This document shows, piece by piece, positions 36,298 through 40,409 of a stretch of DNA of 62,798 nt; the stretch's first letter is position 1; every line of letters starts with the position of its first letter. Source of the DNA: Puniceibacterium sp. (GTDB taxonomy: Bacteria > Pseudomonadota > Alphaproteobacteria > Rhodobacterales > Rhodobacteraceae). The notes beneath the pieces are model-generated. The model made no database searches, was not told the origin of the DNA, and worked only from the letters and a program-made list of their open reading frames with translations. The stretch is taken from NCBI GenBank assembly GCA_024636635.1, contig JAGXGV010000011.1, positions 1-62,798 on the forward strand, written 5' to 3'. A program made the position numbers and the translations under genes.

Positions 36298-36996
36298 TCA
36301 GAGTTCCCTGACCTGGCCCACGGCCAGAACGTCACCCGTCGGCGCCCCGGTGGGAGAGCCGCCCGGCGGTTCGTCCGAAATCGCCAGAGTGAGGCTCGCC
36401 ACCAGCGGCACCAGATCTGCGGGCAGGGTGAGGGTGGCGCGCGGATCGTCGGGCAGCACGCCCAGCGATACGGGCGCAGCACCTTCGGCAATCGCCCAGA
36501 GCTCCAGCGCCCGACCGGCAGCGGCCTGACCTGCGGTGCGGGAGACGCTCAGGCGGTCCGCGTCGGGATCGTAGACAGCAAGAACGCGCAGCGACTGATC
36601 CTCGGCCGCGATTTCGCTGATCAGCAGGGGGCCGCCAGCGCCGGGCAGCACGGTTTCGGGGGTGCGCAGCACCTGCACGCCCAGAAAGACAGCCAGCGCG
36701 ACAGAGGCAAGGCTGAGCGCCTGCCAGAGGCCCGCGCGTTGCCAGAACGTGCCGCGTTCGACCGAACCGAACAGGCGGTGCATCAGGCGGCGGCGGGTGC
36801 GTGACGGCGGCGCGACCTCGGGCACCTCGTCGTTCAGCCCCGACAGGCGCGTGGCCCAGAAGGACACGTAGTCCATCAGGCCGGGTTCGCGCGCAAGACG
36901 CTCTTCGAATGCGGTTTCCTCGCGTTGGGGAAGCAGGCGCAGGACATATTCCGCCGCCAGGATGCCGTCGTCCGGGATCTCCGATTGTTGGGTCAT
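36298..36996 (-). CDS. anti-sigma factor (RskA-like C-terminal domain)
   Basis: single TM, N-terminal anti-sigma region; ATGA overlap with ECF sigma gene. Confidence 0.85.
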   Translation of the reverse strand: MTQQSEIPDDGILAAEYVLRLLPQREETAFEERLAREPGLMDYVSFWATRLSGLNDEVPEVAPPSRTRRRLMHRLFGSVERGTFWQRAGLWQALSLASVALAVFLGVQVLRTPETVLPGAGGPLLISEIAAEDQSLRVLAVYDPDADRLSVSRTAGQAAAGRALELWAIAEGAAPVSLGVLPDDPRATLTLPADLVPLVASLTLAISDEPPGGSPTGAPTGDVLAVGQVREL

Positions 36997-37535
36997 GGCT
37001 GCATACATTCCTTCAGACTGATCAAACTACGCCTCAGCCAGGTGCGCATGGTGTTGAGCGGGACATTGAACCGCTCGGCCAGTTCGGCATAGCTGAGCCC
37101 CTGGAGATAGGCACCGCGCACCGCCTGGCTCTTGTCCGTCTCGAGCTGGTCGAGACAGGCGACGATCCGCGCCGCCTCGCCCGCGGCGATGGCCGATTGT
37201 TCCGGCGTGGGGCCGCGCGCCTCGAGCCGGTCGGCCAGGGCCTCGACATCCGCGCCTTCGCGTGTGGCGCGCAGGCGGTCGATGGCCGTGTTGCGCGCGA
37301 TGGTTATCAGCCAGGTCATGGGACTCATTCCGTTGGACATGTACCGGTCCGCATACCGCCAGATCTTCATGTATGTCTCTTGCAGGACATCTTCGGCATT
37401 GGCCCTATTGTTCAACACACGCAGGGCGACCCCGAATAGTTTCGCGGATGTCTGATCGTAGAGGCTGGAAAATGCCGCGCGGTCGCCCAGGGCCACCCGG
37501 GAAATCAAATCTTCGATGTCTTTGGGTTGTGCCAA
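36993..37535 (-). CDS. ECF-type RNA polymerase sigma factor
   Basis: region 2 (AEDVLQETYMKIWRYADRY) and region 4 (GLSYAELAERFNVPLNTMRTWLRRSLISLKECM). Confidence 0.92.
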   Translation of the reverse strand: MAQPKDIEDLISRVALGDRAAFSSLYDQTSAKLFGVALRVLNNRANAEDVLQETYMKIWRYADRYMSNGMSPMTWLITIARNTAIDRLRATREGADVEALADRLEARGPTPEQSAIAAGEAARIVACLDQLETDKSQAVRGAYLQGLSYAELAERFNVPLNTMRTWLRRSLISLKECMQP

Positions 37536-37703
37536 CAGTCTCGTCCTTTGTCCGGGTGCAACCGTGAATGGAAGTTCACATCTGCCACTCTAGCGAGGGG
37601 CGGTGGAATTACATGCAAAATTTGCGGAAGTATTCCAGACCGTTGCGGGGATGAACCGGTTCGCCCGCGCAACATGTGGAGGCCGACGCCGACACGCGGA
37701 CGG

Positions 37704-37725
37704 GTTTATGACCGCGGTCATAAAC
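37704..37725. repeat. 22-bp perfect palindrome
   Basis: GTTTATGACCGCGGTCATAAAC is identical to its reverse complement. Confidence 0.9.
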
Positions 37726-37807
37726 TTTGTGGGGGCCTGTATCCAAGCGCCTTTCGGGCGTCATGTGCCGCTCGGCTTGCAGGACAGGTGTTTGCGGGGA
37801 AAGCAGA

Positions 37808-37842
37808 AAAAAACGCCCCCGGCGAGGGGGGCGTTCTTTTGT
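37808..37842 (-). terminator. Rho-independent terminator (minus strand; weaker on plus)
   Basis: minus strand AACGCCCCCCTCGCCGGGGGCGTTTTTTTC: GC hairpin followed by 7 T. Confidence 0.8.
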
Positions 37843-38045
37843 GGCGGGAACCGCAGCAACCGCGGGGTTATCTCATTCCCGAGGACCTGTATGTACAGGT
37901 GGGCGTCAGGTAACCGGACCAGGGCCCGGACAGAGCCAACTCCCTCGGAATTGCTTAAGGCCACCGGAATGCAACCCTTGACGAGAAGAGCAGAAGCCCG
38001 CCTGACGCAGAAGGTAGGATGTGCGGTGGCAGACGACAAGGGGGT
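37843..38045 (-). ncRNA. candidate structured non-coding RNA (class unknown; 6S-like considered)
   Basis: no credible CDS; terminator at its 3' end; long-range pairing GCGTCAGG/CCTGACGC about 100 nt apart; local hairpin ACCTGTACATACAGGT. Confidence 0.4.
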
Positions 38046-38132
38046 TTGACGCAAGGCGGCCACGTGAGCGCAAAGATTTCCTGCCGCTGGCCCGGCGCAC
38101 CTTGTACTTGAGACCCCGGCAAGGACAGCAGC

Positions 38133-38876
38133 CTAGCTTTCGTCGGCGACGAATCCGTACAGCGCGAGCTCTTCGGGCAGCAGGACGTAGATTTCATCCG
38201 AAGGGGTGGTAAGCGCGTGCTGCATGACCAGCGGGTCGATGCCCATCTCTTCGAGATAGATCATCACCTCGCCCTGTCCGCGCTGGATGTCCTCGACCGC
38301 GACAAAGGCGGGCAGCAGGGTGTTTTCCCCGAAATAATGCTGATGGACACCGACCGACGCGCCTTCGGCAATGTCGCGGGTGGTGCCGCCGGCCAGCAGA
38401 TAGGGGCAGGCGGAATAGCAGAATTCGCCCTCCAGCATCCGGGTCGCTATGCCATTTTCGCGCAGGTGTCGGCCCAGGGCCAGCGCATCCAGAACCGACC
38501 CGCCGGGGCTTTGCAGGATCAGCGTATCCAGCGCAGAGTCCGCGCCGTCGATCAAGTCGATGATGCGGGTCGCGTCGCCCGAGACGATCGCCCCTTCAAG
38601 CCGCCAGGTGCCGCCGCTTTCGCGGGTCAGGGTCAGGCGGTCGGGCAGGGTGCCCGCGTCGCGCAGCGGCGAAACGGGCGCGTGGTCGCGCGACGGGTCA
38701 AAGGTGCGCCGCTGGTCGCCCGGGCGGACGGGTTCGGACAGGCGTGGCGCAGAGGGGCCAAAGCGGGGCAGACTGAAGCCGCCGTCGCGCACATCGCCCA
38801 GCACCAGAAGGGCGCCTATGGCGAATTGCAGCACCAGCGTTCCGCGCAAGACGCCCGAGACGGTCAGGCCGCGCAT
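38133..38876 (-). CDS. COG3904-like predicted periplasmic/membrane protein with ClpP/crotonase-like fold
   Basis: N-terminal TM; SPGGSVLDALALGRHLRENGIATRMLEGEFCYSACPYLLAGGTTRDIAEGASVGVHQHYF. Confidence 0.65.
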   Translation of the reverse strand: MRGLTVSGVLRGTLVLQFAIGALLVLGDVRDGGFSLPRFGPSAPRLSEPVRPGDQRRTFDPSRDHAPVSPLRDAGTLPDRLTLTRESGGTWRLEGAIVSGDATRIIDLIDGADSALDTLILQSPGGSVLDALALGRHLRENGIATRMLEGEFCYSACPYLLAGGTTRDIAEGASVGVHQHYFGENTLLPAFVAVEDIQRGQGEVMIYLEEMGIDPLVMQHALTTPSDEIYVLLPEELALYGFVADES

Positions 38877-40261
38877 CAGGCGCTTTTGCCCGGCAGGCGG
38901 GGTATGTCGGTGTGATCCGGGCTGGTTGCGGCGGCTTTATCCTTGCGTGTCGCTTCGGAACCGGCCTGATTGGATGGCGCGGCTGTGGCGTCATCCCCCT
39001 GCGCGGACGCAGCGGGCGTTGCCGGCACGGTGCGGATATTGATCGCCTCTTCGACGTCGCGCACCGCATGCAGGGCGGCGCGCAATTCGGCCAGGGTCAT
39101 CGTATCCTCGACCCCGACACCGTCGCGCCCCGAACGGATGGCAGAGTGGGTGACGGCGAGGATAAAGACCAGCACGGCGGGCAGCAGGTCGATGGCAATG
39201 GCCCCGGCCCAGGAGGGCACGAAGTTGCGCGCATAAAGGATGACCGCATCGGCAGAAGAGATCGGTGTATAGGTCACCTCTTTTGCGGGTTGCAGGGCCA
39301 GCACCTCTTGCGCGGCGGTTTCGAGCGTGGTGGCGCGCTGGGCCAGCACCTCGAGCACCGAGGTGATGGTGGCGGCCTGGTTGCCGCGGTTCGCCTCTGT
39401 ACTGCCGTCAAGTTCGGGCAGGACGACCGAAGCCGCCAGATCCTGCGCCGCGCGCTGCACCAGCGCGGCAACGGACAACTGGCGCATCTGGGCAATGAGG
39501 CCCTGCAACTGCACCGCGGATTCGGAAAATTCGACCGAGCGCGCCTCGACCGGGCCGGGTTCGACGGTGAGCGCGCGCATCCGCGACAGGATGGTGTTGC
39601 CTTCGGCAAAGGCTGCCTCGACCAAGGGCGTCTGTGCCACGATCTGGGCCTCCAGCGCGGTCAGTTCGGCCGATTTCTGGCGCAGCACGCGGAAGACGGC
39701 GCCACGCCCGGCAAGGCCCGAAAGCGAACCTGCCGCCTCCTGTTCTGACAGATCCTCGAAGCTCTGGCGCACGCGGGCGACATCGCGTTCGAGCGACTGG
39801 CCGGTCAGCGCGATCTCGTGCGCGCGTTCGAGCGAGCCCTGATAGTCCTGAACGGTGCGGGCAAGGTGCTGTTCGACAGCCGCCGATCCGGCCAGCGCGG
39901 CGGCATTCAGCCAGGAGGACATGGCGATGATGGCAACCGAACCAAGGCCCATCGCCGCAAGCAGCCCGGCCTTGGCCCCGCGCGAGCGGACGGCGGGAAA
40001 CAGCCGCATGAGGTAGGACCAGAACACGAAGATGCCGACCGACACGGCGACGGAATAGGCGATGGCGGCAAAGATCGACATGGCGCCGTTGTCATCCAGC
40101 AGCGAGGACACGCCGAGATAGGTGTAGATGCCCGAGGCGGCGGCAAGCACGCCAAGCGCCGTGCCGGAAAAACTCTCGAGCCAGCCAAGGTGGTCTTCCA
40201 GTTCGCGGGCATAGCGCACGCCGCGCGCCTGGGACGAGGTCAGCCTGGTGTCTTCGGTCAT
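38876..40261 (-). CDS. hypothetical multi-TM protein with long coiled-coil region
   Basis: N-terminal TM cluster, extended heptad-like region, another TM near the C-terminus; stop overlaps downstream start (TGATG). Confidence 0.6.
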   Translation of the reverse strand: MTEDTRLTSSQARGVRYARELEDHLGWLESFSGTALGVLAAASGIYTYLGVSSLLDDNGAMSIFAAIAYSVAVSVGIFVFWSYLMRLFPAVRSRGAKAGLLAAMGLGSVAIIAMSSWLNAAALAGSAAVEQHLARTVQDYQGSLERAHEIALTGQSLERDVARVRQSFEDLSEQEAAGSLSGLAGRGAVFRVLRQKSAELTALEAQIVAQTPLVEAAFAEGNTILSRMRALTVEPGPVEARSVEFSESAVQLQGLIAQMRQLSVAALVQRAAQDLAASVVLPELDGSTEANRGNQAATITSVLEVLAQRATTLETAAQEVLALQPAKEVTYTPISSADAVILYARNFVPSWAGAIAIDLLPAVLVFILAVTHSAIRSGRDGVGVEDTMTLAELRAALHAVRDVEEAINIRTVPATPAASAQGDDATAAPSNQAGSEATRKDKAAATSPDHTDIPRLPGKSA

Positions 40262-40409
40262 GTCGCATCCTTTTCGGGCGGTGTCGCGGGTGGCGTGATG
40301 CGACGCCTGCGACACGCACATTCTGCGTAAGGTAAGCGCATGGGCGCACGATGGAAGAGGGCGATGCGGGGGGCTTGCATTTGTTCACGTATTGTTCATA
40401 GTTTCGGTC

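Follow-up and report, generated by a model that had tools for sequence, protein, structure and literature searches.

A match to the 6S RNA family in an intergenic region

The minus strand of the window, the 62,798-nt stretch of DNA analyzed here, almost certainly carries the single, ordinary 6S RNA (ssrS) gene of this genome, which belongs to a marine member of the Rhodobacteraceae related to Puniceibacterium. The 6S core occupies 37844..37999 (-), as judged from a full-length Rfam match, a held-out family model (R1) and covariation; with the closing-stem nucleotides GGCGGG/CCCGCC included, the feature extends over about 37843-38001 (-). The gene is newly annotated here, yet the family is well known. 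A previously unannotated stretch is now assigned to a housekeeping regulator, in agreement with one option of the original prediction, a housekeeping RNA of the 6S type.

A permissive Rfam scan of 37300-38400 returned RF00013 (6S/SsrS) at 37999-37844 (-), covering the whole model (1-187 of 187) with 41.5 bits and an E value of 9.4e-7. This is 4.9 bits short of the gathering score of 46.4 bits, and a scan of the whole window at gathering thresholds reported one tRNA and nothing else. Other weak Rfam matches in the gap, among them ctRNA, asX2 and Scr1601, fell far under their own cut-offs and were discarded; they probably arose by chance from the terminator hairpin and from GC-rich stems. The possibility that the gap is coding was likewise rejected. 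The open reading frame at 37603-38049 (+, 148 aa) had no Pfam match, and the same DNA gives the full-length match to an RNA family, so that the earlier view of this gap as devoid of a credible coding sequence holds.

The low score was shared by relatives. RF00013 matched the window's own genome and 52 of 60 relatives, which makes 53 of 61 genomes; only 23 of the 61 passed the cut-off, and the window's genus scored in the same range. Since 30 of the 53 matching genomes fall short in the same way, the general RF00013 model appears to be biased against this lineage, in which 6S RNA may be underannotated. Indeed, a score just below the standard Rfam cut-off means that automatic annotation could miss the gene in the window.

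We therefore relied on covariance model R1, built from 26 aligned sequences that all come from outside the window's genus. R1 scored the window at 158.1 bits (E value of 2.4e-32; R1 E values are rough owing to a short calibration, though the margin is large), next to 157 to 164 bits for five other members of the genus. It also recovered L002, L003 and L010, all of which lie above Rfam's own 6S cut-off. Genome-wide searches of the 3.55-Mb assembly, which is 79% complete, gave one match only, both with R1 and with RF00013. A 70-base core pattern was found in 81 stretches, nearly all of them in records titled Rhodobacteraceae.

Two side observations were made in these searches. L088 (JAHVJD010000007.1), from a record titled Nocardioides marinus, contains a Rhodobacteraceae-type 6S RNA that scores 160 bits with the family model, and this assembly is probably mislabeled or contaminated. 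Genome G013 (82% complete) has two divergent 6S matches, L060 and L061, on different contigs, which are either two paralogues or the product of a mixed assembly.

Covariation supports the 6S structure

The minus strand of 37805-38010 folded better than its shuffled versions (z of -2.64). RNAalifold, run on 34 family sequences, recovered the 6S architecture with compensatory change at 10 of 31 pairs. When the canonical structure, including the 3' hairpin of the central bulge, was held fixed, 96.7% of cells were paired in these 34 sequences, a value that is favored by the partial derivation of this structure from the same alignment, though hardly to such an extent. Sliding the partner by one column reduced pairing to 52% or less. 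Changes on both sides were observed at 11 of the 31 pairs, and none of 500 shuffles reached the covariation score of the canonical structure. The closing stem, the central bulge and the apical stem of 6S RNA are thus all supported by covariation in relatives.

The sequence elements singled out in the original prediction were all recovered at or beside the places given for them, on the minus strand within 37806-38008, and most of them have a place in this structure. The hairpin ACCTGTACATACAGGT (37885..37900, -) is the conserved 3' hairpin of the central bulge, and its innermost tested pair changed on both sides in nine sequences; the helix of this small hairpin (helix 6; ACCUGUACAUACAGGU) was paired in 91.8% of cells. 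The segment GGTGGCCTTAAGCAATTCCGAGGGAG (37940..37965, -), in which a slight resemblance to 6S RNA had been noticed, was identified by the alignments as the 5' strand of the central bulge together with the start of the apical stem. In the apical stem, CCTGACGC (37903..37910, -) makes up the 3' strand. It pairs with GAGTTGG and not with the upstream GCGTCAGG, and a compensatory pair between CCTGACGC and GAGUUGG reads UA in the window's genus (7 of 34 sequences) as opposed to CG in most relatives (27 of 34).

This last result bears on the long-range helix that had been proposed between GCGTCAGG (complement of 38001-38008, +) and CCTGACGC (complement of 37903-37910, +). The letters of both 8-bp arms are present, but the helix is not conserved and was rejected: 47.0% of cells were paired, compared to 46.2% in shuffles, and CCTGACGC covaries with its apical-stem partner instead. 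It is extremely unlikely that the locus encodes an uncharacterized trans-acting small RNA, distinct from 6S and organized by this helix. Such a reading can draw on the perfect 8-bp complement, which the window shares with one close relative and which a random 12-nt leader yields in about 1.2% of trials, and on the use of the helix when the isolated stretch is folded to minimum energy. However, GCGTCAGG is confined to these two sequences and is not conserved in the other 32 of 34. When a longer stretch is folded to minimum energy, pairing of the two arms is favored over formation of the canonical closing stem, by a nondiscriminating margin of 0.4 kcal/mol (-65.6 versus -65.2). Moreover, GCGTCAGG starts 3 nt past a -10-like element, and part of this arm is therefore probably untranscribed. 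Pairing between GCGTCAGG and CCTGACGC is a near-chance feature of two species.

Putative promoter and terminator

Upstream of the 6S core, conservation among relatives revealed a -35-like element, CTTGTC (38035..38040, -), and, after a 17-nt spacer, a -10-like element, CTACCT (38012..38017, -). The pair reads CTTG(T/C)C-N17-CTANNT in relatives and lies at a nearly fixed distance from 6S; for the -35-like element, most relatives have the same spacing and near-identical letters. A scan with a generic sigma-70 consensus reported no promoter because these promoters match TTGACA/TATAAT poorly. Judging from spacing, transcription would start at about 38004-38006.

On the other side, a minus-strand terminator had been proposed, and the intrinsic terminator AACGCCCCCCTCGCCGGGGGCGTTTTTTT indeed lies within 37806..37842 (-), a few nucleotides past the 3' end of 6S. 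In the window and in three other members of its genus (G001, G002 and G005), 6S is followed by a terminator no more than about 10 nt away, with a stem sequence that differs in each of the four. In other family members, none was found directly behind 6S by a script that missed the imperfect stem of G005 and may overlook others. As far as sequence can tell, the promoter-like pair and the terminator fit an RNA with its own promoter, a defined 3' end and a length of about 160 to 200 nt.

Genomic neighborhood

The 6S gene of most family members is flanked by mmcB/DUF6324 and by nusB-ribH-ribBA. The usual zapA/fau neighborhood is absent from the window, as had been pointed out, but this is no oddity, since a 6S locus between mmcB and nusB is normal for the family.

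Extra genes have entered this locus in the window's genus. An ECF sigma factor (36993-37535, -) and an RskA-type anti-sigma factor (36298-37008, -), both identified by Pfam, are downstream neighbors that lie outside the RNA. The window, G001, G002 and G004 carry the pair in the interval from 6S to nusB; in G003, the anti-sigma factor alone was detected after 6S, and in G005 the pair was not found. This operon is a genus-level neighbor of 6S. Between mmcB and 6S lies a two-gene cassette (38133-40321, -) without Pfam match. Four genomes of the genus carry it upstream of 6S (the window's own, G001, G002 and G005), as do G025 and G030, which belong outside the genus; it was not found in G003 and G004. 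By eye, its 247-aa product resembles ClpP.

Several family members outside the genus have instead a gene for a predicted membrane protein of about 105 aa, convergent with 6S and shortly after it, for which no Pfam family was found. The same query matched in 13 relatives and gave no match in any of the genus's six genomes. One might imagine that the 6S locus was rewired in this genus, by loss of the membrane-protein gene, a terminator in four of six species and the arrival of the ECF sigma/anti-sigma operon on the same strand, and that read-through from 6S could couple this polymerase-sequestering RNA to alternative sigma factor levels; we regard this as very unlikely.

The RNA could also be viewed as acting in cis, as leader or attenuator for the ECF operon, given that both lie on the same strand and that a terminator separates the structure from the sigma gene. 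The structure is, however, that of 6S, the distance from the terminator to the start codon of the sigma gene is about 270 nt, and the same RNA occurs without an adjacent ECF operon in G005 as well as in those genomes of the family that were examined outside the genus, so that a leader function has next to no probability. That the locus is a degenerate 6S pseudogene, with a working copy elsewhere in the incomplete assembly, would agree with the score under the Rfam cut-off and with 79% completeness, but its probability is practically nil, since the promoter-like element and the pairing are intact, the held-out score is level with those of the five close relatives and each of these five has exactly one match, in the corresponding neighborhood.

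Proposed function and predicted pRNA

For the 6S RNA of the window, expression, polymerase binding, pRNA synthesis, growth-phase control and a physiological role are inferred from the 6S family. A housekeeping-type promoter at about 38012-38040 (-) would produce an RNA of about 160 nt, or about 200 nt with the terminator tail. Its closing stem, central bulge with 3' hairpin and apical stem would together resemble an open promoter. By analogy, the RNA would bind the RNA polymerase holoenzyme that contains the primary sigma factor and would thereby lower housekeeping transcription as growth slows. Upon relief from stress, the polymerase may copy the bulge strand GGCCUUAA into a pRNA with the predicted start 5'-AAGGCCACCGGAAU..., which would refold the 6S RNA and release the polymerase.

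The pRNA template is probably contained in GGTGGCCTTAAGCAATTCCGAGGGAG. From the position in E. coli, we take the predicted 5' end to be 37957 (+), with the pRNA reading 5'-AAGGCCACCGGAAUGC... (AAGGCCACCGGAAU; AAGGCCACC). The bulge of the window reads GGCC-TTAA, compared to GGCCGATAA in some family members, and the predicted pRNA thus begins with AAGGCC and not with AUCGGCC. This start puts GG at positions 3/4. As GG is found at pRNA positions 4/5 in E. coli, R. sphaeroides and A. aeolicus (PMC8414754), the predicted start could be off by one base.

Comparison with known 6S RNAs

Known 6S RNAs occupy the polymerase holoenzyme with a sigma70-type factor by mimicking an open promoter (PMC10406553) and are freed from it through pRNA synthesis on the bulge (PMC8414754). 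The RNA of the window resembles the proteobacterial 6S RNAs of RF00013 in its full-length match, its closing stem, central bulge with 3' hairpin and apical stem, its length of roughly 160 nt and its single copy, and differs from them in scoring 4.9 bits under the gathering score.

A close point of comparison is Rhodobacter sphaeroides, which belongs to the same bacterial family as the window and whose 6S RNA is that of Elkina et al. (2017), as cited in PMC8998176, PMC8414754 and PMC13414033. The pRNA start of this 6S RNA has been proven experimentally (PMC8414754), and a salt-stress phenotype is reported for it (PMC8998176, PMC13414033). According to the second of these, a 2026 review (PMC13414033), sspA, a putative membrane protein gene, lies downstream of 6S in R. 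sphaeroides. The gene for the small predicted membrane protein that lies convergently after 6S in several relatives is a possible counterpart. The lineage-specific loss of the small membrane-protein neighbor offers a minor lead on the reported connection of 6S with salt stress in R. sphaeroides. Compared to R. sphaeroides, the window's genus stands apart in that the membrane-protein gene was not found in its six genomes, that an ECF sigma/anti-sigma operon comes after 6S in most members and that four of the six species have a terminator immediately behind 6S.
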